Shown: in pieces, positions 1,511-21,362 of the stretch
Layout: the number at the start of each line of letters is the position of its first letter
How positions within the stretch are numbered: the stretch's first letter is position 1
Program-made: the position numbers and the translations under genes
NCBI RefSeq assembly: GCF_900095285.1
Contig: NZ_LT607734.1
Location: 1,178,001 to 1,242,000 of the forward strand
DNA from: Fusobacterium gastrosuis
Lineage (GTDB): Bacteria > Fusobacteriota > Fusobacteriia > Fusobacteriales > Fusobacteriaceae
Direction of reading: 5' to 3'
DNA length: 64,000 nucleotides
The notes under the pieces: model-generated
Database searches by the model: none
What the model was told of the DNA's origin: nothing
What the model saw: the letters and a program-made list of their open reading frames with translations, nothing else

Positions 1511-1600
1511 ATGTTTATATCAACTAACTTAGTTATTATTAACATACTTCTAATTCTGGTGATTATTATTCTAGTGATAATCAGCAGTTTTTTAGTATAA
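1511..1600 (+). CDS. Ile/Leu/Val-rich leader peptide of the ilv-leu operon
   Basis: This 29-codon ORF has a good ribosome binding site (AGGAGAG at 1497-1503, 7 bases from ATG). It encodes 10 Ile, 6 Leu and 4 Val, 20 of 29 residues, with a dense run in codons 7-24. Five of the six Leu codons are not all the TTA favoured here: CTT, CTA and CTG also occur, with GTG and ATC, codons that look uncommon in this genome. Such a peptide ahead of ilvD matches leader peptides of transcription attenuators in enterobacterial ilv operons, where stalling on scarce charged tRNA controls a downstream terminator. It is too short for ordinary gene calling. The stop codon lies only 8 bases before a segment able to pair with either the leader or the terminator. 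The peptide itself probably has no other role. Confidence 0.85.
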   Translation: MFISTNLVIINILLILVIIILVIISSFLV

Positions 1601-1718
1601 ATAAAACAAAGTTAGGGAATGAGTATAAAAATAAGATAGATGTTTAATAATAAGTGTAACAGCTAAAATTAATTAAAATCAGTTTATTCAAATACAGCCT
1701 AACGGCTGTATTTTTTTT
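1524..1718 (+). promoter_or_regulatory. Transcription attenuator (leader RNA switch) of the ilv-leu operon
   Basis: Three segments are mutually exclusive. CTAACTT (1524-1530, leader codons 5-7) can pair with AAGTTAG (1609-1615). GTTAGG (1611-1616) can instead pair with CCTAAC (1698-1703), which is part of the left arm plus loop of the terminator. The terminator itself pairs 1691-1699 with 1704-1712. A ribosome finishing at the stop (1598-1600) would cover 1611-1616 and favour termination. A ribosome stalled early in the Ile/Leu/Val run would mask 1524-1530, free 1611-1616 and favour read-through. The pairings are visible in the sequence; the mechanism is inferred from known ilv/leu attenuators. 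Confidence 0.7.
1691..1718 (+). terminator. Attenuator terminator upstream of ilvD
   Basis: A perfect 9-bp stem, AATACAGCC (1691-1699) with GGCTGTATT (1704-1712), has the tetraloop TAAC and a T-run to 1718. It sits between the leader peptide and ilvD, so most transcripts would stop here unless an alternative fold forms. Confidence 0.9.
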
Positions 1719-1750: not shown

Positions 1751-3415
1751 ATGGGGAGAAGTAATAATTTAACATGTGGGACAGCAAGAGCACCACATAG
1801 ATCATTACTGAAAAGCTTGGGCTTTGTGAATGAGGAAATGGATAGACCGATAATTGGAATAGCAAATTCATTTAATGAGATAATTCCGGGGCATGTACAT
1901 TTGAATACATTAGTTCAAGCAGTAAAAGATGGAATTAGGAATGCAGGAGGAATTCCAATGGAATTTAATACTATTGGGATTTGCGATGGTTTAGCAATGA
2001 ATCACATAGGAATGAAATATTCTTTAGTAACTAGAAATATAATAGCTGATTCAATAGAAGCTACTGCAATGGCAACTCCATTCGATGCCATAGTATTTAT
2101 TCCTAATTGTGACAAAGTTGTTCCTGGAATGTTGATAGCAGCAGCAAGATTAAATATACCTTCTCTTATCATAAGTGGTGGAGCAATGCTTGCAGGAGTA
2201 TATAAAGGAAAAAAAGTTGGACTGAGCAATGTTTTTGAGGCAATAGGGCAATTTAATGCAGGAAAAATGAGCCAAAAAGAGTTAGATATGGTTGAAGATT
2301 TAGCATGCCCTACATGTGGTTCTTGTTCTGGGATGTATACGGCAAATACAATGAATTGTTTAACAGAAGCTCTTGGGATGGCTTTACCTGGAAACGGAAC
2401 TATTCCAGCAGTTTTTTCGGAAAGACTAAGACTTGCCAAAAAAGCTGGAATGCAAATAATGGAAGTATTAAAAGCAGATTTAAGACCTAGGGATGTTTTA
2501 ACAAAAGAGGCTTTTGAAAATGCAGTAGCGGTTGATATGGCACTTGGAGGTTCATCAAATACAGCTCTTCACTTGCCTGCAATTGCCCATGAAGCAGGAA
2601 TAGAATTAACACTTGATGATTTTAATGAAATTGCAAAGAAAACACCTCAGTTGTGTAAATTATCTCCATCAGGAGAATACTTTATAGAAGATTTATATAG
2701 AGCAGGTGGAGTTACAGGTGTAATGAAGAGAATGTATGAAAACGACAGATTAAATGGAAATGTCAAAACGGTTGCCTTACAAACTCAAGAAGAATTAGTT
2801 AAAAAAGCGTGCATAAATGATGAAGATGTAATAAAACCATGGAATAAACCAGCTTATGTTACAGGTGGAATAGCAGTTTTAAAAGGAAATTTAGCGAAAG
2901 ATGGATGTGTTGTGAAAGAGGGAGCTGTCGCAAAAGAAATGCTTGTTCATTCTGGGCCTGCGAAAGTTTTTAATAATGAAGAAGATGCAGTGGCTGCTAT
3001 AGTTGGAGGAAAAATCGTAGCAGGAGATGTAGTTGTTATTAGGTATGAGGGACCTAAAGGTGGGCCTGGTATGAGAGAAATGCTATCACCCACATCTATG
3101 ATAGCAGGTATGGGGCTTGATAAAGATGTAGCACTTATAACGGATGGAAGATTTTCAGGGGCAACAAGAGGAGCTTCAATAGGACATGTATCACCTGAAG
3201 CAGCTGCAGGAGGAACAATTGCAATAGTACAAGATGGAGATATTATTGAAATTGATATACCTAATAGAAAATTAAATGTAAAACTTTCAGATGAAGAAAT
3301 AACAGAAAGAAAAACAAAATTAGCACCTTATAAAATAACAGCAACAGGATATTTGAAAAAATACGCTATGCATGTTTCATCAGCAGCAGAAGGAGCAATA
3401 GAAATATTAGATTAA
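1751..3415 (+). CDS. ilvD: Dihydroxy-acid dehydratase
   Basis: IlvD dehydrates 2,3-dihydroxy-isovalerate and 2,3-dihydroxy-3-methylvalerate to the 2-oxo acids, the step before transamination in valine and isoleucine synthesis. The product is 554 residues, typical for the family. The Fe-S ligand cysteines are seen in NCDKVVPGM (about residue 120) and CPTCGSC (about 186-192). The C-terminal swivel domain carries DGRFSG. I chose ATG 1751 because AAGGAG at 1735-1740 is correctly spaced for it; a GTG at 1742 is too close to that site. It is the first gene of the operon, immediately behind the attenuator. Confidence 0.97.
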
Positions 3416-3433: not shown

Positions 3434-4639
3434 ATGCATAAACTTTATGATTTTATAGAAGCAAGAGAGAGACTAGGTACAGTTATTGAAAAGACAAAAC
3501 TTATTTACAGTGGAATTTTTTCAGATGAATCAGGGAATGAAGTCTATATTAAACCTGAAAATTTACAAAAAACAGGATCCTTTAAAGTTAGAGGCGCTTA
3601 TAATAAAATAGCAAAACTTTCGGATGAAGAAAAAGCTAAAGGAGTTATAGCTGCTTCAGCAGGAAATCATGCTCAAGGTGTGGCATTAGCTGCACAAAAA
3701 TTAGGTATTAAAGCTATTATTGTAATGCCTAAGCATAGTCCTTTAATTAAAGTAGAAGCAACTAAAAAATTTGGAGCAGAAGTTATTTTAATAGGAGATG
3801 TTTATGATGATGCATATAAGTATGCAAGAGAATTACAAGAAAAAGAAGGTTATACATTTGTACATCCATTTGATGATGAAGATGTTATAGAGGGACAAGG
3901 AACTATAGCATTAGAAGTATTAGAAGAAATACCTGATGCCGATATGATTTTAGTCCCAGTGGGTGGAGGTGGCTTAATTTCAGGACTAGCCTGTGCTGCA
4001 AAATTAAAAAACCCTCTTATCAAAATAATTGGGGTTGAGCCTGAAGGAGCTGCAAGTGCATTAGCTGCAGTAAAAAATAATCAAGTTGTTACACTTGATG
4101 AAGCAAATACAATAGCTGATGGGACAGCTGTAAAGAGAATAGGAGATAGAACATTTGATTATATAAAAAAATATGTGGATGAAATAGTAACGGTTTCTGA
4201 TTATGAACTTATGGAAGCATTTTTATTATTAGTTGAAAAACATAAACTAGTTGCAGAAAATTCAGGAATATTATCAGTTGCAGGTCTTAAAAAATTAAAT
4301 GTCAAAAATAAAAAAATAGTATCTATATTAAGTGGAGGAAATATAGATGTATTAACAATATCATCAATGATAAGTAAAGGACTTATAAATAGAAAAAGAA
4401 TTTTTACATTTTCAGTTGATTTACCTGATAAACCTGGGCAATTAGTTGCTGTTTCAGAAATACTAGCAGCTCAAAATGCAAACGTAGTTAGACTTGAACA
4501 TAACCAATTTAAAAATCTTAATAGATTTCATGATGTTGAACTACAAGTGACAGTAGAAACTTATGGTGAAGAACATATAAATAGAATAACTGAAATTTTT
4601 AAAGAAAAAGGTTATGTGATAAAAAGATTAAATTCTTAA
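3434..4639 (+). CDS. ilvA: Threonine dehydratase (threonine ammonia-lyase) with ACT domain
   Basis: This PLP enzyme deaminates threonine to 2-oxobutanoate, which feeds isoleucine synthesis. The PLP lysine lies in KTGSFKVRGAY (K51), and the phosphate-binding glycine loop GGGGLISG is near residue 178. A single ACT domain occupies about 325-401. The 401-residue layout resembles the shorter TdcB-like ammonia-lyases with a C-terminal ACT domain rather than the 500-residue E. coli IlvA. Its place between ilvD and ilvB argues for a biosynthetic role, so I use ilvA; a catabolic role cannot be excluded from sequence. The start has AAGGAG at proper spacing, 18 bases after ilvD. Confidence 0.92.
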   Translation: MHKLYDFIEARERLGTVIEKTKLIYSGIFSDESGNEVYIKPENLQKTGSFKVRGAYNKIAKLSDEEKAKGVIAASAGNHAQGVALAAQKLGIKAIIVMPKHSPLIKVEATKKFGAEVILIGDVYDDAYKYARELQEKEGYTFVHPFDDEDVIEGQGTIALEVLEEIPDADMILVPVGGGGLISGLACAAKLKNPLIKIIGVEPEGAASALAAVKNNQVVTLDEANTIADGTAVKRIGDRTFDYIKKYVDEIVTVSDYELMEAFLLLVEKHKLVAENSGILSVAGLKKLNVKNKKIVSILSGGNIDVLTISSMISKGLINRKRIFTFSVDLPDKPGQLVAVSEILAAQNANVVRLEHNQFKNLNRFHDVELQVTVETYGEEHINRITEIFKEKGYVIKRLNS

Positions 4640-4665
4640 AATAAAAGGTAAAGTAGGTGAAAAAA

Positions 4666-6393
4666 ATGCAGAATGTTATGATAAATGGAGCAAGAATGTT
4701 ATTAGAATGTCTTTATAGAGTTGGTGTGACAGATATGTTTGGATATCCTGGCGGAGCTGTAATACCAATATATGATGAACTCTATACTTTTAATAAAATA
4801 AATTATTATTTTTCAAGGCACGAACAAGGTGCAGCACATGAAGCTGATGGTTATGCTAGAGTTACAGGAAAAGTTGGAGTTTGTTTGGCAACTTCAGGAC
4901 CAGGAGCTACAAATTTAGTAACAGGGATAATGACTGCACATATGGACTCGATACCAATGTTAGCAATAACAGGACAGGTAAAAAGCAATATGTTAGGAAA
5001 AGATGCTTTCCAAGAAACTGATATAGTTGGAATTACAGTACCTATAACTAAGATGAATTATTTAGTTCAAGATATAAAAGATATACCTAGAATAATAAAA
5101 GAGGCTTATTATATAGCTGGAACTGGAAGACCAGGTCCAGTACTGGTTGATATACCAAATGATATACAGTTACAAGAGATATCATATGAAGAATTTAATA
5201 AACTTTATGAGAAAGAAATAAAATTGGAAGGTTATTCTCCAACTTATGAAGGACATTTAGGACAGGTTAAAAAGGCTATTAAATTAATAAAAGAAGCAAA
5301 AAAACCATTGATTATAGCAGGTGCAGGAATATTAAAATCAGGAGCAAATCAAGAATTACTAGAATTTGCTAAAAAAATAGATACTCCTGTTACAACAACC
5401 TTGTTAGGACTAGGAGGATTCTCAGAGGAGCATGAATTATCTTTAGGTATGTTAGGTATGCACGGAACGGTTGCCGCAAATTATGCAACGGTTGAAACAG
5501 ATTTGGTAATAGCTGCTGGAATCAGATTTGATGATAGAATAACAGGAAATCCGAATACTTTTTGCCCTAATGCAAAATTTATTCATATAGATATAGATCC
5601 AGCTGAAATAGATAAAAATGTAATTGTGGATGTCCCAATAGTAGGTGATTTAAAAAATGTTTTAACCATGTTAATAGGAGAAGTAAAGGAAAAAAATAAT
5701 AAAGAATGGGTAAAACAAGTAAAAATATGGAAGAAAGAATATCCTTTTGCTCATAGAAAAGTTGAAATGGACAAGCTTTTACCTCAGGAAGTTTTAAAAG
5801 AACTTAATAGTATTTTAAAAGGAAATGCAATAATAGCTACTGATGTAGGCCAACACCAAATGTGGGCTGCACAATATTTAACATATATTAAACCTAACAG
5901 CATTGTAAGTTCAGGTGGAGCAGGAACAATGGGCTTTGGGCTTCCAGCTGCAATAGGAGCACAGGTTGGTGCAAGAGATAAAAAAGTTGTATTAATAGTT
6001 GGTGATGGTGGATTTCAAATGACTTTTCAAGAATTGATGCTGATAAAACAATATAATTTACCTGTAAAAGTTATCATTATAAATAATGCGTATTTAGGTA
6101 TGGTAAGACAGTGGCAAGAATTATTTAAAGATAGAAGATATTCGTCAGTTGATTTATCAATTAATCCAGACTTTATAAAAATTGCAGAAGCTTATGGTTT
6201 AAGGGCTGAGAGAATAGAAAATAAAAAAGAGTTAAAGAAAAAATTAAAATCCTTAATAGAATCAGATGAAGGAGTTGTAATAGATTGTATAGTTGAAAAA
6301 GAAGAAAATGTATTTCCTATGATACCAGCTGGCACTAGTGTGATTCAGATGATGGGGAAAAGAGGTGTTCTAGAAGATGAACAAAGAGCATGA
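4666..6393 (+). CDS. ilvB: Acetolactate synthase, large (catalytic) subunit
   Basis: This ThDP enzyme condenses pyruvate with pyruvate or 2-oxobutanoate, the first common step of branched-chain synthesis. The N-terminal Pyr domain has GYPGGAVIPIYDEL and the catalytic Glu in RHEQGAAHEADG. The C-terminal PP domain has the ThDP/Mg motif GDGGFQMTFQEL near residue 450 ending in INN. About 575 residues, as expected. Two starts are possible: GTG 4657 with AAGG upstream, or ATG 4666 with AGGTGA 6 bases away. I prefer the ATG. The 3' end overlaps ilvN by 17 bases, suggesting translational coupling of the two subunits. Confidence 0.96.
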   Translation: MQNVMINGARMLLECLYRVGVTDMFGYPGGAVIPIYDELYTFNKINYYFSRHEQGAAHEADGYARVTGKVGVCLATSGPGATNLVTGIMTAHMDSIPMLAITGQVKSNMLGKDAFQETDIVGITVPITKMNYLVQDIKDIPRIIKEAYYIAGTGRPGPVLVDIPNDIQLQEISYEEFNKLYEKEIKLEGYSPTYEGHLGQVKKAIKLIKEAKKPLIIAGAGILKSGANQELLEFAKKIDTPVTTTLLGLGGFSEEHELSLGMLGMHGTVAANYATVETDLVIAAGIRFDDRITGNPNTFCPNAKFIHIDIDPAEIDKNVIVDVPIVGDLKNVLTMLIGEVKEKNNKEWVKQVKIWKKEYPFAHRKVEMDKLLPQEVLKELNSILKGNAIIATDVGQHQMWAAQYLTYIKPNSIVSSGGAGTMGFGLPAAIGAQVGARDKKVVLIVGDGGFQMTFQELMLIKQYNLPVKVIIINNAYLGMVRQWQELFKDRRYSSVDLSINPDFIKIAEAYGLRAERIENKKELKKKLKSLIESDEGVVIDCIVEKEENVFPMIPAGTSVIQMMGKRGVLEDEQRA

Positions 6394-6865
6394 ACTATTA
6401 ATAATTGCAAAGAATAGTAATGGAATTGTAGCAAGAATAATGTCTTTATTTAATAGAAGGGGTTATCTAGTAAAAAAAATGACAGCTGGTGTAACAAATA
6501 AAGTTGGTCATGCAAGACTTACATTAACAGTTGATGGAGATGATAAGTCATTGGAACAAATTCAAAAACAAGTCTATAAAATTGTAGATGTAGTGAAAGT
6601 AAAAATATTTCCAGAGAGTGGAGTAATCAGAAGAGAACTTATGTTAATAAAAGTTAAGGCAGATTACAAAACTAGGGCTCAAATAGTTCAAATAGCTGAT
6701 ATATATCGTGGTAAAGTCCTAGATGTTTCGCCAAATTCTGTAATAATTGAATTGACTGGAGATGTTGAGAAACTTAGAGGCTTTGTGGATATGATGGAAA
6801 ATTATGGAATTTTAGAAATGGCTAAAACAGGAGTTACAGCCATGAGTCGTGGAGAAAAAATCTAA
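6377..6865 (+). CDS. ilvN: Acetolactate synthase, small (regulatory) subunit
   Basis: This is the regulatory partner of IlvB, which stimulates it and confers valine feedback inhibition. The 162 residues comprise an N-terminal ACT domain (about 5-80, with NSNGIVARIMSLFNRRGY) and the conserved C-terminal domain (RELMLIKVKAD onward, with ELTG near 125). The length matches IlvH/IlvN-type small subunits. It starts inside the last codons of ilvB. No separate promoter is needed. Confidence 0.95.
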   Translation: MNKEHELLIIAKNSNGIVARIMSLFNRRGYLVKKMTAGVTNKVGHARLTLTVDGDDKSLEQIQKQVYKIVDVVKVKIFPESGVIRRELMLIKVKADYKTRAQIVQIADIYRGKVLDVSPNSVIIELTGDVEKLRGFVDMMENYGILEMAKTGVTAMSRGEKI

Positions 6866-6917
6866 AAAATTATTTTTTAATAAAATACAAAGATATGAGT
6901 AAATTTTAGGAGGGAAA

Positions 6918-8432
6918 ATGAAACACATTAAATTTTTTGATACAACTTTAAGAGATGGAGAGCAGACACCAAGAGTTAATTTGAATGCTAAAGAAAAATT
7001 AAGAATAGCAAAGCAACTTGAAAATTTGGGAGTGGATATAATAGAAGCAGGGTTTGCTGCAGCTTCTCCAGGGGATTTTGAAGCAATAAAACTCATATCT
7101 GAAAATATAAAAAAATCAACTGTAACAAGTTTAGCAAGAGCAGTAAAAAAAGATATAGAAATTGCAGCTGAAGCATTAAAAAATGCAGATAAACCAAGAA
7201 TACATACTTTTATTGCAACATCACCTATACATAGAGAATTTAAGTTAAAAATGTCCAAGGAAGAGATAATTTTAAGAGTAAAAGAAATGGTTACCTATGC
7301 AAAATCTTTTATAGATGATATTGAATTCTCAGCTGAAGATGCTTTTAGAACGGAAAAAGAATATTTGGTTGAAGTTTTCAATGCAGCCATAGAAGCCGGG
7401 GCAACAACTCTAAATGTACCTGACACTGTGGGATATAGGACTCCCACAGAAGTATATGAAACAATAAAATATTTGAAAGAAAACATAAAAGGAGTAGATA
7501 AAGTTGATTTATCCATTCACTGTCATGATGATTTAGGACTTTCAGTCGCAAACTCAATAGCTGCAATTCGGGCAGGAGCTAGACAAATTGAATGTACTAT
7601 AAATGGTATAGGAGAAAGAGCTGGAAACACTTCTTTGGAAGAAGTAGTTATGATAATCAAAACAAGAAAAGATATATTTGATGGATATATGACTAATATA
7701 GATGCTAAGCAGATTTATCCGACTAGTAAATTGGTTAGTTTATTAACGGGTGTTACGACTCAACCTAATAAAGCAATAGTAGGAACAAATGCATTTTCAC
7801 ATGAATCAGGTATACATCAACATGGAGTATTAGCTAATCCAGAAACTTATGAAATTATAAGACCAGAAACTGTTGGTAGAAATACAGATAGCTTAGTTCT
7901 AGGAAAGTTATCAGGAAAACATGCCTTTATTCAAAAGTTAGAAATTTTAGGATTGCATATATCTGAAAATAAAATTGAAGATTTATTTAATGAGTTTAAG
8001 AAATTAGCTGATAAGAAAAAATATGTCTTAGATGAAGATATAATTGCATTAGTTGCAGGAGATGCGGCACAGATAGAAGGAAGAAAAATTATTCTTGAAC
8101 ATTTTGAAATTTCAAGAAAAGCCGGACAAAAAACGAAAGCAGAAATAAATTTGCTCATAGATGGAGAAAAAGTTTACAAAGAAGCTTTTGGAGATGGACC
8201 AGTTGATGCGGCATATAAAGCAATAAACTCAGCATTAAACGATGATTTCACATTAGAAGAATATAAACTTGAATCAATAACAGGAGATACGGATGCACAA
8301 GCTCAAGCAGTAGTATTTATAAATAAGAATGGAAAGAGATACATGGGAAGAGGCCAAAGTACAGATGTGGTTGAAGCGGGATTGAAAGCATATATCAATG
8401 GCTTGAATAGATTGTATAAGGAAAATAATTAA
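6918..8432 (+). CDS. leuA: 2-Isopropylmalate synthase
   Basis: LeuA condenses 2-oxoisovalerate with acetyl-CoA, the committed step of leucine synthesis. The HMGL-type TIM barrel begins with FFDTTLRDGEQTP (catalytic Arg-Asp). It has the metal-binding pair SIHCHDD near residue 202 and GERAGNTSLEE. The linker carries HESGIHQHG and NPETYEI. A C-terminal LeuA dimer/feedback domain covers about 390-504. At 504 residues it is full length. Homocitrate or citramalate synthases are alternatives in this superfamily, but adjacency to leuCDB makes LeuA the best call. AGGAGGG precedes the ATG. The 52-base gap from ilvN holds no obvious terminator. Confidence 0.95.
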   Translation: MKHIKFFDTTLRDGEQTPRVNLNAKEKLRIAKQLENLGVDIIEAGFAAASPGDFEAIKLISENIKKSTVTSLARAVKKDIEIAAEALKNADKPRIHTFIATSPIHREFKLKMSKEEIILRVKEMVTYAKSFIDDIEFSAEDAFRTEKEYLVEVFNAAIEAGATTLNVPDTVGYRTPTEVYETIKYLKENIKGVDKVDLSIHCHDDLGLSVANSIAAIRAGARQIECTINGIGERAGNTSLEEVVMIIKTRKDIFDGYMTNIDAKQIYPTSKLVSLLTGVTTQPNKAIVGTNAFSHESGIHQHGVLANPETYEIIRPETVGRNTDSLVLGKLSGKHAFIQKLEILGLHISENKIEDLFNEFKKLADKKKYVLDEDIIALVAGDAAQIEGRKIILEHFEISRKAGQKTKAEINLLIDGEKVYKEAFGDGPVDAAYKAINSALNDDFTLEEYKLESITGDTDAQAQAVVFINKNGKRYMGRGQSTDVVEAGLKAYINGLNRLYKENN

Positions 8433-8457
8433 GGCTAAATAAATGGAGGAAACTTAT

Positions 8458-9846
8458 ATGAAAACATTATTTGATAAAGTCTGGGAAAAGCATGTAGTGG
8501 AAGGAATTGAAGGAGAAGCCCAACTTTTATATATAGATTTACATCTAATTCATGAAGTAACATCACCGCAGGCATTTTCTGGCTTAAGAATAGCAGGGCG
8601 TAAGGTTAGAAGACCAGATTTGACCTTTGGAACTATGGATCACAATACACCTACTATAATGGAAGAAAGAATGAATATAAAGGATGAAGTTTCTAAAGCT
8701 CAATTAGATGCGTTAGCAAATAATTGTAAGGAATTTGGTGTGGAACTTGTAGATATGTTCAATGGAAACAATGGAATAGTACATATGGTAGGTCCTGAAC
8801 AAGGCTTGACATTACCAGGAAAAACAATTGTTTGTGGGGATAGCCATACAGCTACGCATGGAGCATTTGGAGCAATAGCTTTTGGAATAGGAACAAGTGA
8901 AGTTGAGCATGTACTTGCAACTCAAACTATATGGCAGAAGAAACCTAAGACCATGGGAATTGAGATAACAGGAAAATTACAAAAAGGAGTATATGCTAAG
9001 GATATAATTTTATATATTATAAAGACTTATGGCATAGGTTTAGGCAATGGTTATGCTTTTGAATTTTTTGGTGATACAATAAGAAATTTATCAATGGAAG
9101 AAAGGATGACAATATGCAATATGGCTATTGAAGCTGGAGGGAAGTCAGGAATAATTGCCCCAGATGAAATCACATTTGAATATATCAAAGGAAGAAGATT
9201 CACACCAAAAGATGAAGATTTAGAGAAAAAAATAAAAGAATGGAAAGAATTATATACAGATTCGGTAGAAGCTTTTGATAAGTATATAAAAATTGATGTA
9301 AATAATTTAGTACCACAAGTAACTTGGGGGACTAATCCTGAAATGGGAATAGATATTACTGGAATTTTTCCAGAAATAAAAGATGTAAATGATGAAAAAG
9401 CCTATGAGTATATGGGATTAAAACCTAATCAAAGCCCTTATGATATTCCTTTGAAGCATGTTTTCATTGGATCTTGTACAAATGGAAGATTAAGTGATTT
9501 AGAAATAGTTGCAAAAATAGTGGAAGGAAAAAGAGTGGCTGAAAATATAAAAGCGGTTGTAGTTCCTGGTTCACAAATTGTAAAAAGAATAGCAGAGGAA
9601 AAAGGAATTGCAAAAATCTTAATTGATGCTGGTTTTGAATGGAGAGAAGCAGGTTGTTCAACTTGTTTAGGTATGAATCCAGATGTTATACCAAGTGGAG
9701 AGCATTGTGCATCTACATCTAACAGAAATTTTGAAGGTAGACAAGGTAAGGGGGCAAGAACACACCTTGTCAGTCCTGCAATGGCAGCTGCAGCAGCAAT
9801 TAATGGGAAATTTGTAGATGTGAGATTTGAAAAAGGAGTTGAATAA
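8458..9846 (+). CDS. leuC: 3-Isopropylmalate dehydratase, large subunit
   Basis: LeuC is the aconitase-type, [4Fe-4S]-bearing subunit of isopropylmalate isomerase. The cluster cysteines are visible in GSCTNGR (around residue 340) and [11 protein letters not shown] (around 400). Other family motifs are [14 protein letters not shown] and [15 protein letters not shown]. The product from ATG 8458 is 462 residues. An in-frame ATG at 8443 overlaps the ribosome binding site (GGAGGA at 8445-8450), so 8458 is the better start. The gene ends 2 bases before leuD, its obligate partner. Confidence 0.96.
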
Positions 9847-9848
9847 TA

Positions 9849-10421
9849 ATGAAACCTTTTAAAAAATATGTAGGAACAATCGTTCCCATAATGAATAATA
9901 ATATAGACACAGATCAATTGATTCCTAAGCAATATCTAAAAAGTATAGAAAAAACTGGCTTTGGCAATTATGTTTTTGACGAATGGAGATACAATGAAGA
10001 TGGAACAGATAACATGGATTTTAACCTAAACAAGCCGGAATATAAAAATGGAACTATTTTAATAACAGGAGAAAATTTTGGCTGTGGCTCATCAAGAGAA
10101 CATGCTGCTTGGGCATTACAAGATTATGGTTTTCATGTGATTGTAGCTGGAGGATATTCTGGAATTTTCTATATGAACTGGCTAAATAATGGGCATTTAC
10201 CAATAACATTACCAGAAAAAGAAAGAGAAGAACTTGCAGAATTAGATGGAAATATAGAAGTTGTAGTAGATTTAGAAAATAATAAATTATCTGCAAATGG
10301 GAAAGATTATTTTTTTGAATTGGAAGAATCTTGGAAACAAAGATTACTAAAAGGGTTAGATTCAATAGGGTTAACTTTGGAATATGAAGACAAAATAAGA
10401 GCTTATGAAATGAAAAATTAA
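9849..10421 (+). CDS. leuD: 3-Isopropylmalate dehydratase, small subunit
   Basis: LeuD is the swivel-domain subunit that completes the isomerase active site with LeuC. It has NNNIDTDQLIPKQYLK near the N-terminus and GENFGCGSSREHAAWAL near residue 75, both diagnostic. The 190 residues match the longer, bacterial-type LeuD. It starts 2 bases after the leuC stop, so translation is probably coupled. Confidence 0.96.
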   Translation: MKPFKKYVGTIVPIMNNNIDTDQLIPKQYLKSIEKTGFGNYVFDEWRYNEDGTDNMDFNLNKPEYKNGTILITGENFGCGSSREHAAWALQDYGFHVIVAGGYSGIFYMNWLNNGHLPITLPEKEREELAELDGNIEVVVDLENNKLSANGKDYFFELEESWKQRLLKGLDSIGLTLEYEDKIRAYEMKN

Positions 10422-10453
10422 AAAGTAATATATAATGCGAGGAGAAAATTATA

Positions 10454-11512
10454 ATGGAATACAAAATTGCAGTATTAAAAGGAGATGGAATAGGTCCGGA
10501 AATAATAGCAGAAACTATAAAAGTTTTAGACAAAGTAGCTGAAAAATATGGGCATAAATTTGTATATCAAAGAGGATATTTGGGTGGAGAATCTATTGAT
10601 AAATATGGAGTTCCATATTCAGAAGAAACGAGCAGAATTTGCAGAAATTCAGATGCTATTTTATTAGGAGCAGTGGGAGGATCTAAGTGGAACGAAATAG
10701 AAGCAGATAAAAGACCTGAAAAAGGATTGTTAGCAATTAGAAAAGAATTAGCTGTCTATACAAATTTAAGACCAGCAATATTATTTAAAGAATTAAGAAG
10801 TGCAAGCCCATTAAAAGATGAAATAGTTGAGGATGGGTTAGATGTGATGATAGTCAGGGAACTTACAGGAGGAATATACTTTGGACCTCGTGAGTATTCA
10901 GAAGAAAAAGCCGTAGATACAATGCCTTATACAAGAAATGAAATAGAAAGAATAGCCAGGAAGGCTTTTGAAATTGCAAGAAATAGAAACAAAAAATTAA
11001 CAAGTGTGGACAAACACAATGTTTTAGATACTTCAAAACTATGGAGAAAAATAGTAAATGAAGTAGCGAAAGACTATCCAGATATAGAAGTATCTCATAT
11101 GTATGTGGACAATGCGGCTATGCAGCTTATTATAAATCCAAGGCAATTTGATGTAATTTTAACTGAAAATATGTTTGGAGATATTTTATCAGATGAAGCT
11201 TCTATGCTTACAGGTTCGCTTGGAATGCTGCCATCAGCTAGTTTGGGAGATGGGAAACTTGGTTTATATGAACCATGTCATGGCTCTGCTCCAGATATAG
11301 CTGGACAAAATATTGCTAACCCAATAGCAACTATAATGTCAGCAGCTATGATGCTTAGATATTCTTTTGACTTGGAAGATGAAGCTATAGCTATTGAAAA
11401 AGCAATTGAAGAAGTTTTGAGTCAAGGATACAGAACAGCAGATATATATACTGAAGGAACAATAAAAATAAGTACAGTAGAAATGGGAACACAAATAGCA
11501 AATAAAATTTAG
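10454..11512 (+). CDS. leuB: 3-Isopropylmalate dehydrogenase
   Basis: LeuB oxidatively decarboxylates 3-isopropylmalate to 2-oxoisocaproate using NAD and Mg2+. The 352 residues start with [11 protein letters not shown]. They contain the active-site lysine region [16 protein letters not shown] near 185, the metal-binding Asp in [15 protein letters not shown], and the NAD-binding [18 protein letters not shown]. These features separate it from isocitrate dehydrogenase, as does its place after leuD. GAGGAGA precedes the ATG. Confidence 0.96.
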
Positions 11513-11521
11513 GAGTAAATA

Positions 11522-12316
11522 ATGGAAAAAGAAATACTATGTTATAAAAATGTTTCTTTTGTAAGAGATGGTAGAAAAATTTTAGATGACATTAATTGGC
11601 AAATCAAAGAAAATGAGAATTGGGCTTTGATAGGCTTAAATGGTTCTGGAAAATCTACACTTTTGAGTATGTTACCAGCTTATGTTTTTCCAAGCTCTGG
11701 AGAATTATGGGTTTTTGAAAATAAATTCGGAGCTTGTTTTTGGAAAGAGGTAAGAGATAAATTAGGCTTTGTGAGCTCAGCATTACAAAATAATTTTTCA
11801 TCAACGCTTAATAGACAAAGCTTAGAAAATATAGTGATTTCAGGAGCATATAATTCCATAGGAATTTATCAGGAAGTGGCAGATGAAGTAAAGAACAAAG
11901 CAGAAAAGATAATTGAAAATTTTAAAATTTCATATATAAAAGATAAAATTTTTGGAAGTTTATCTCAAGGCGAACAAAGAAGAACTTTACTTGCAAGAGC
12001 TTTTATGAATGAACCAAATTTACTTATTTTGGATGAGCCTTGTTCTGGGCTTGATATAACAGCAAGAGAAAGTTTTTTAAAAAATCTTCAGGAGATTTCA
12101 GAATCTGAGGAAGATAAAATAGCTTTTATCTATGTAAGTCATCAAATAGAAGAAATAATTCCAGCTGTTAGTCATGTTGCTATCTTAAAAGATGGAAAGA
12201 TGATAGCTCAAGGGAAGAAAGAAGAAATTCTAACAAAAGAATTTTTAAGAGAATTATTTGAATTAGATGTAGATATAATTTGGAAAAATGGAAGACCATA
12301 CTTAATAATCGAATAA
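11522..12316 (+). CDS. Stand-alone ABC ATPase (YlmA/ModF-like) inside the ilv-leu operon
   Basis: This is a single nucleotide-binding domain of 264 residues with no membrane segment. It shows Walker A GLNGSGKST (about 38-46), signature LSQGEQRR (about 147), Walker B LLILDEP (about 167) and the H-loop SHQ (about 203). By length and layout it resembles orphan COG1119-type ATPases such as B. subtilis YlmA. No permease or binding protein is nearby, so transport cannot be assumed. It lies 9 bases after leuB and 36 before ilvC on the same strand, so it is presumably co-transcribed with the pathway. Its substrate is unknown. It may team with a permease elsewhere or act in a non-transport role. Confidence 0.85.
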   Translation: MEKEILCYKNVSFVRDGRKILDDINWQIKENENWALIGLNGSGKSTLLSMLPAYVFPSSGELWVFENKFGACFWKEVRDKLGFVSSALQNNFSSTLNRQSLENIVISGAYNSIGIYQEVADEVKNKAEKIIENFKISYIKDKIFGSLSQGEQRRTLLARAFMNEPNLLILDEPCSGLDITARESFLKNLQEISESEEDKIAFIYVSHQIEEIIPAVSHVAILKDGKMIAQGKKEEILTKEFLRELFELDVDIIWKNGRPYLIIE

Positions 12317-12343
12317 TAAATTAATAATATAACAAAAATATAG

Positions 12344-13360
<1,017 letters not shown>

Positions 13361-16917: not shown

Positions 16918-17089
16918 TTTTAAGACAGAGGTTGCATCAATCAAGAGTAGTTAGTTGGAGATCGAAAGTCAGTGAAAACTAATGAAAGGGAAAGATGCCG
17001 AAGTGAATTGTCAAAAAATTTGCTGGGGATATGTTGAATAAGCATATAACTGTCTTTGTGCAAGAGCACAAAGTTGCGCTATCTTAAAA
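16918..17089 (+). ncRNA. Lysine riboswitch (L box)
   Basis: The sequence follows the L-box consensus in order: AGAGGTTGC, a loop with CAAGAGTAG, GTGAAAACT, GAAAGGG, GATGCCGAAG, TTTGCTGGGG, a short hairpin, ACTGTC, a stem-loop around CTTTGTGCAAGAGCACAAAG, and TTGCGCTATCTT. Closing stem P1 pairs TTTTAAGA (16918-16925) with TCTTAAAA (17082-17089). Known lysine riboswitches turn genes off when lysine is bound. Here AAAACATG (17086-17093), which overlaps the 3' strand of P1, is perfectly complementary to CATGTTTT (17161-17168). That gives a plausible antiterminator. Confidence 0.93.
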
Positions 17090-21240: not shown

Positions 21241-21255
21241 CCATTTCAATATAAT

Positions 21256-21362
21256 AACCATAAAGAGAAACGGAGGGACAGGCCCTTAGATGTTTCAGCA
21301 ACCTACTGCATATGAAAATCATGTGGTGTGGTGCTAATGCCTGAGCTATGGAAGATAGGTAA
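21256..21362 (+). ncRNA. SAM-I riboswitch (S box)
   Basis: S-box elements occur in the canonical order: AAAGAG, CGGAGGGACAGGCCC, GATGTTTCAGCAACC, a variable hairpin, GGTGTGGTGCTAATGCCTG, and the 3' core GGAAGATAGGT. SAM binding in this class promotes termination of methionine genes. GGAAG (21350-21354) can pair with CTTCC (21372-21376) of the following terminator as a candidate antiterminator. Located directly before metF, it fits feedback by S-adenosylmethionine. Confidence 0.93.

Follow-up and report, generated by a model that had tools for sequence, protein, structure and literature searches.

Positions 1511–1718 of the window (the whole stretch analysed here, 64,000 nucleotides of Fusobacterium gastrosuis, NZ_LT607734.1 positions 1,178,001–1,242,000, forward strand) very probably form a ribosome-mediated transcription attenuator ahead of a branched-chain amino acid operon, with read-through expected when charged Ile/Leu/Val tRNA is scarce. 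Leader-peptide attenuation had been proposed in a preliminary description of this DNA and is the best reading after comparison with relatives, given leaders in 39/57 Fusobacteriota genomes with ilvD, the fit of complementary strands to their own partners, and negative searches for T-box and other Rfam elements; the distribution of the leaders suggests attenuation of this kind across much of Fusobacteriota. A more extended reading, to which we lean by a modest degree, is that the element belongs to a class in which the antiterminator strand is itself coding sequence, within a leader ORF of 35–56 codons, and is switched off by translating ribosomes; that this class originated in Fusobacteriota, reached Veillonella together with ilvD and is there identical to a published ilvD riboswitch candidate; and that the window's copy was rebuilt after its ORF had been shortened.

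The leader ORF, RNA segments and terminator of the preliminary description are all present to the base. The ORF (plus strand, 1511–1600, stop codon at 1598–1600) is preceded by a Shine-Dalgarno sequence, AGGAGAG, detected by script at 1497–1503, and its 29 codons specify the peptide MFISTNLVIINILLILVIIILVIISSFLV, with 20 Ile/Leu/Val residues (10 I, 6 L, 4 V). Seven I/L/V-rich ORF entries (20–80 codons, at least 60% Ile/Leu/Val) occur on both strands of the whole window, two of them having one stop codon in common, and the leader ORF is the only one with a Shine-Dalgarno sequence. Segment 1 (CTAACTT, 1524–1530) and its complement AAGTTAG (1609–1615) are both in place, as is the intrinsic terminator ahead of ilvD, with stem arms AATACAGCC and GGCTGTATT at 1691–1712, extending to ten pairs as 1690–1713, and a T tract that takes the element to 1718 (−13.2 kcal/mol). 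Two terminator-like sites were observed in 1180–1790 against 0.1 expected in shuffles, the second lying behind gatB, the gene upstream of the leader; a simple promoter scan of the interval from the gatB terminator to the leader gave no promoter-like site on the plus strand. Within the ORF, a hairpin (1556–1587) followed by TTTTTTAG (to 1595) is terminator-like with its T run, and possibly serves as a pause site or as a terminator of untranslated RNA; such a site occurs within the ORF in one of the 49 leaders collected below, namely the window's own. An inverted repeat, AACTTGCTTT/AAAGTAAGTT, lies at 1446–1472 directly upstream of the leader and is possibly an operator.

The first gene past the leader is ilvD, encoding dihydroxy-acid dehydratase (1751–3415, plus strand; TIGR00110 above cut-off), followed on the same strand at 3434–13360 by ilvA, ilvB, ilvN, leuA, leuC, leuD, leuB, an ABC ATPase gene and ilvC, assigned by NCBIfam matches. 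Gene order and strand suggest a single transcript from ilvD to ilvC, and the amino acids that the leader would sense are those made by the products of the ilv and leu genes in this series. The ABC ATPase gene (11522–12316), between leuB and ilvC, is assigned from NCBIfam matches that lie below their cut-offs.

Folding predictions for the leader RNA are consistent with alternative structures of the classical kind. In the absence of a ribosome, a single long hairpin is predicted to form from the ORF and segment 2 (1609–1619), with the pairing of 1524–1530 and 1609–1615 near its base; the RNA of 1511–1624 folds at −28.5 kcal/mol against a mean of −18.5 (sd 3.0) in permutations of its own synonymous codons, none of 500 being as low, and by this test a competing 1:2 structure over the regulatory codons is predicted for the window. 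Downstream, the terminator arm and loop (1691–1703) are paired with 1601–1690 over an expected 9.3 nt versus 5.3 (sd 2.1) in shuffles, with 7/300 shuffles reaching the observed value. The preliminary description had based its antiterminator on GTTAGG (1611–1616) and CCTAAC (1698–1703); both sequences are present, but the 6-bp match by itself is at chance level (p=0.55) and was rejected as sufficient evidence. Its predicted context is larger: when the growing transcript ends at 1703–1708, 2:3 pairing is preferred, and three blocks of pairs are predicted between the RNA that a stalled ribosome leaves exposed and the left arm and loop (1611–1616/1698–1703, 1623–1626/1692–1695 and 1630–1635/1683–1688), the last two adding a further antiterminator strand at 1623–1635, and the partner region, segment 3 (1683–1703), overlapping the terminator left arm (1691–1699) and loop (1700–1703). 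A pairing that excludes the terminator is thus found in silico in the window, against shuffles, as it is in relatives by the partner swaps described below.

Once the transcript ends at 1710 or later, the terminator is predicted to be more stable than the 2:3 pairing, and the equilibrium fold of the full-length leader keeps the terminator stem (9/9 pairs) in 6/6 ribosome positions tried; left-arm capture was therefore rejected as an equilibrium state of the complete leader and must act kinetically. Full-length folds with a stalled ribosome also pair the U tract (1713–1721) with 1611–1619, leaving the stem intact, while the U tract is unpaired without a ribosome or when 1611 is covered. This pairing, which the preliminary description did not name, may be a second antitermination route; from these fold differences, the switch could use kinetic left-arm capture, U-tract pairing of the kind proposed for Staphylococcus aureus, or both.

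The mechanism that we propose has three states. Without a ribosome, 1524–1530 would pair with 1609–1615 and nothing would hinder the terminator. When charged tRNA is plentiful, the ribosome would reach the stop codon at 1598–1600; the leading edge of a ribosome lies ∼10–12 nt beyond the stop codon, and would here cover 1609–1611, so that 1611–1616 could not pair downstream, and the terminator (1690–1713) would form with its U tract free. With a ribosome stalled in the Ile/Leu/Val run, segment 1 would be hidden and 1611–1635 left free to pair with 1683–1703 while the right arm emerges, with 1611–1619 perhaps pairing later with the U tract; transcription would then continue into ilvD.

An ilvD orthologue (at least 54% identity, with paralogues at 44–49% identity excluded) was found in 57/98 Fusobacteriota genomes, and conserved Ile/Leu/Val-rich leader ORFs, the comparative evidence that the preliminary description had asked for, lie upstream of it, with a Shine-Dalgarno sequence, in 39 of these 57. 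They comprise 24/24 genomes in the family of Leptotrichia and Sebaldella, 2/2 in the window's genus, six further members of the window's family, whose leaders are dense, and seven of one genus in that family with a short leader (for example MNKFKNLFTIIIIICFWVWI). A strict rule (Shine-Dalgarno sequence and at least nine I/L/V in 14 residues) is passed by 34/39 positive genomes, the other five (L037, L038, L157, L159, L160) being positive under a looser rule only. No leader was found in the remaining 18/57 genomes with ilvD, one of which has just 158 nt upstream; the counts exclude loose matches in L020 (VYFSIVVVN, 451 nt distant) and in L182 of the Negativicutes (TTG start, 420 nt distant), as well as candidates in L084 and L121, whose peptides read as the ends of transporter genes.

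The regions upstream of ilvD that were searched, including those of relatives outside the phylum, yielded 49 leader loci, with two contigs represented twice (as L014/L046 and as L018/L047). Residues 2–21 of the 49 leaders are 74.8% I/L/V and 5.6% A/F/G/M/W/C/Y, a bias towards I/L/V stronger than one would expect of a membrane peptide. The genus with short leaders (L037, L038, L156–L160) represents a second design within the window's family, in which a leader of 19–20 codons contains a run of five or six Ile and two alternative hairpins precede ilvD; its first hairpin starts more than 20 nt past the stop codon, and the classical geometry is for that reason not claimed for it. Two Desulfobacteria loci have short leaders of their own (L088 2818–2904 and L120 73–162; MKNNIVIINLILIIILVVRVLPYCEEKD and similar); their antiterminator strand, 13 nt long, covers the stop codon, and their terminator has 14 bp.

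The classical ilvGMEDA and leu attenuators of Escherichia coli and Salmonella have an Ile/Leu/Val-rich leader and a 1:2, 2:3, 3:4 pairing logic, with segment 2 near the stop codon; in most relatives examined here, by contrast, segment 2 lies well inside the ORF. The position of segment 2 past the stop codon, described initially for the window, is accordingly not the general geometry: the strand best complementary to the terminator lies within the ORF, past the Ile/Leu/Val run, in 46/49 loci, the exceptions being the window, L088 and L120. Complementarity between strand and terminator has p≤0.05 in 33/49 loci and lies above 0.05 in 16/49, L003 and L044 among them. Leptotrichia-type leaders carry the strand in codons for ALKV that read GCCTTAAAAGT, which in L006 and L013, for instance, is perfectly complementary to ACTTTTAAGGC in the terminator left arm and in other loci has a shorter or broken match; the corresponding pair is GTCTTAAAAGTT with AACTTTTAAGAC in Veillonella, GCCTTTT with AAAAGGC in another Veillonella group, and GGGTTAGCTAT with ATAGCTAACTT in L026. 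When partners were swapped among loci, strands 2 and 3 (R2/R3) scored 17.46 with their own partners versus 14.61 with others, and 0/5000 swaps reached the observed value (28 distinct pairs in 40 loci, kinship ignored); this comparison covers the 40 loci of the GCCTT/GTCTT class, other pairing types (L012, L026, L028, L029, L016, L049, L050, L088 and L120) having been left out beforehand. Two-sided changes occur among the R2/R3 pairs, for example from GCC/GGC to GTC/GAC. The window's own pairings (1524–1530/1609–1615 and 1611–1616/1698–1703), for which a covariation check had been proposed, were not found in relatives in exact form; they consequently have no covariation support and rest on the folding statistics.

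RNAalifold predicts the helix of strands 2 and 3 in both of two alignments, of 10 Veillonella and 14 Leptotrichia-type sequences chosen among the 49 and ended before the right arm. Columns of the helix pair in 98.1% of cases versus at most 50.0% for versions slid by 1–3 columns in one alignment, and in 85.2% versus at most 67.9% in the other; within these single clades the helix hardly varies, and the observed count of two-sided changes is reached by 500/500 and 140/500 shuffles. Frame 0 is used for the strand at 34 loci, frame 1 at five and frame 2 at one, a single inserted base in Veillonella shifting the frame and leaving the RNA unchanged. Its Ala codon is GCC in 18/18 leaders tested (motif AL[KRE][VI]), against 32/1077 Ala codons in the available parts of ilvD at the same loci. 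Gaps upstream of the strand are all multiples of three in two leader alignments (12/12 and 16/16), as in a translated ORF; taken together, the gap, frame and codon patterns indicate a first half of the ORF that behaves like a translated run of I/L/V codons and a second half that behaves like RNA. On these sequence patterns, it is the RNA and not the peptide that is conserved in the second half of the relatives' leader ORFs, which would make them a clear example of such conservation within a leader ORF.

Most relatives would thus follow the same logic through a strand inside the ORF (codons 25–33 in the main class, whose ORFs have 35–56 codons) that translating ribosomes would mask. Between strands 2 and 3 of the main class lie 78–169 nt (median 130.5), strand 3 beginning 23–120 nt past the leader stop in relatives. 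The spacing is a weak point of the proposal, for a single fast ribosome would get past strand 2 before strand 3 exists, and strand 2 would need repeated translation, or re-pairing with upstream RNA, to stay occupied. Predicted folds of Veillonella leaders pair TGTTAGGTT with AACTTAACA, directly upstream of strand 2; this pairing of the ORF start is seen in 10 Veillonella sequences, and the helix is nearly invariant and so carries no covariation signal.

The window is a divergent member of this group, with a shorter ORF, a different terminator, segment 2 past the stop codon and no GCCTT-type strand. Its nearest IlvD relative (L044) and a genome of the same genus (G002) have the common design with a GCCTT-type strand, the complementarity in both being weaker than in most (p 0.26 and 0.67), and no counterparts of the same sequence to the window's segments 2 and 3 were found among the relatives.

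The IlvD tree joins the window's protein with that of L044 (97/85) within a Leptotrichia-type clade; judged by its IlvD, the operon sides with Leptotrichiaceae and not with the bulk of its own family. Leptotrichia-type and Veillonella IlvD form one clade (100/99; 45 rows), and the leader is present in 44/45 of these rows, the 45th having just 263 nt upstream. When other Negativicutes were added, Veillonella IlvD stayed among Fusobacteriota, and a tree constrained to place it with other Negativicutes was rejected (p-AU 2.45e-5). The Negativicutes sample consisted of 150 genomes drawn from a larger class, 114 of them with ilvD; among the 30 best loci, the leader was found in 18/18 whose IlvD shares at least 78% identity with the V. 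infantium protein and in 0/12 of the next-best (61–63% identity), and named Veillonella loci also carry it upstream of ilvD. The simplest reading, and a likely one with the tree evidence being that of IlvD, is that operon and attenuator crossed phyla together, presumably in the direction of Veillonella, which would make this a case in which an attenuator apparently changed phylum together with its operon. One Negativicutes genome (G159) carries three equal-scoring ilvD copies exactly 25,748 bases apart (contig C1, 40705, 66453 and 92201), which may be a tandem triplication or an assembly artefact.

A conserved RNA has been published upstream of Veillonella ilvD, the Veillonella ilvD (WRC-18-2) motif, with a possible terminator and the standing of a weak riboswitch candidate (PMC8632094). 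It lies where the Veillonella leaders of the present analysis lie, upstream of ilvD, and is likely the same attenuator element, an identity drawn from location; as published, the motif is confined to Veillonella, and the section that describes it names no leader ORF. The present analysis therefore offers a testable explanation for an orphan riboswitch candidate. PMC8632094 is the only paper found in the open-licence literature on the Veillonella ilvD motif, and also the only one found there for Fusobacter with branched-chain amino acid, or Veillonella with ilv. No paper on leader-peptide attenuation in Leptotrichia or Fusobacterium was found in the same literature, and priority is not claimed; PMC4833913, in the portion concerned, mentions Fusobacteria only among groups with an uninformative distance peak.

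Leaders of this type, initially placed mostly in Proteobacteria and Actinobacteria, are not limited to these groups, as ilvD leaders of S. aureus (PMC5794164) and Listeria (PMC5864092) have been published. The Listeria monocytogenes Rli60/ilvD attenuator, reporter-tested in E. coli (PMC5864092), shares with the window a leader with branched-chain amino acid codons and an alternative antiterminator and terminator before ilvD of an ilv-leu operon; as described there, it has a leader of 13 amino acids with the alternative structures downstream, whereas the window has 29 codons, the main class of relatives 35–56 with the strand in the ORF, and the phylum is another one. The leucine-rich attenuator peptide of S. 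aureus ilvD is an Ile/Leu leader of 26 amino acids that has its own ribosome-binding site and is followed by a terminator ahead of ilvD; the predicted antiterminator pairs with the poly-U and leaves the stem intact (PMC5794164). The same U-tract pairing with an intact stem appears in the window's predicted full-length fold with a stalled ribosome; unlike the S. aureus proposal, the left arm is also captured in the window's growing transcript, as predicted, and in relatives. A precedent for reinterpretation is the Corynebacterium ilvB-II motif, first tested as a riboswitch and then read as a branched-chain amino acid uORF attenuator (PMC10272879); it precedes ilvBNC in Actinobacteria, whereas the window's leader precedes ilvD, and ilvD goes unmentioned in the main text of that paper, whose reinterpretation as uORF attenuators concerns ilvB motifs.

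The conserved RNA could instead be a metabolite-binding riboswitch to which the ORF is incidental, as the candidacy of the Veillonella motif (PMC8632094) and the strongly conserved RNA adjoining the antiterminator strand in Veillonella would allow. We consider this improbable. The conserved RNA falls within an ORF in which I/L/V make up 75% of the first part and every gap ahead of the strand is a multiple of three, and the strand itself is complementary to the arm of the terminator. No Rfam family reaches its gathering score in the window's leader region, at 16 ilvD loci with a leader or at 20 further ilvD loci; the authors of the motif note in describing it that covariation is scant and that the stems are unusually long (PMC8632094). 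Relaxed Rfam matches in 1200–1800 (RAGATH-17, E 2; STnc390, E 1.1) were far below gathering scores and were rejected. That the ORF encodes a small hydrophobic membrane protein, upstream of ilvD by position only, has the slightest chance of the readings weighed here: I/L/V-rich stretches do occur in membrane helices, and the Leptotrichia-type leaders have ∼50 codons and a conserved C-terminal half, but other hydrophobic residues are rare (5.6%), the conserved half corresponds to an RNA strand whose reading frame differs among loci, and three leader peptides gave no NCBIfam family match.

Control by a T-box or a DNA-binding repressor, with the leader adding little, is very improbable. The preliminary description had noted that a T-box might be expected in a fusobacterium-like genome, and T-box-like matches below the gathering score do occur in 13/61 related genomes; however, 0/61 genomes reach the gathering score, RF00230 gave no match at the locus or, at E≤0.001, in the window's own genome, where T-box control was rejected, and none was found at gathering score in the window, the 16 leader-bearing or the 20 other ilvD loci. 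The inverted repeat at 1446–1472 is compatible with a repressor, which could act in addition to the attenuator. Attenuation by the leader peptide accordingly remains the preferred account of 1511–1718.

Two riboswitches lie elsewhere in the window, a lysine riboswitch at 16918–17089 (103.8 bits) and a SAM (S-box) riboswitch at 21255–21354 (58.5 bits), which together with the attenuator make three unlike amino-acid-related leader elements within 64 kb.
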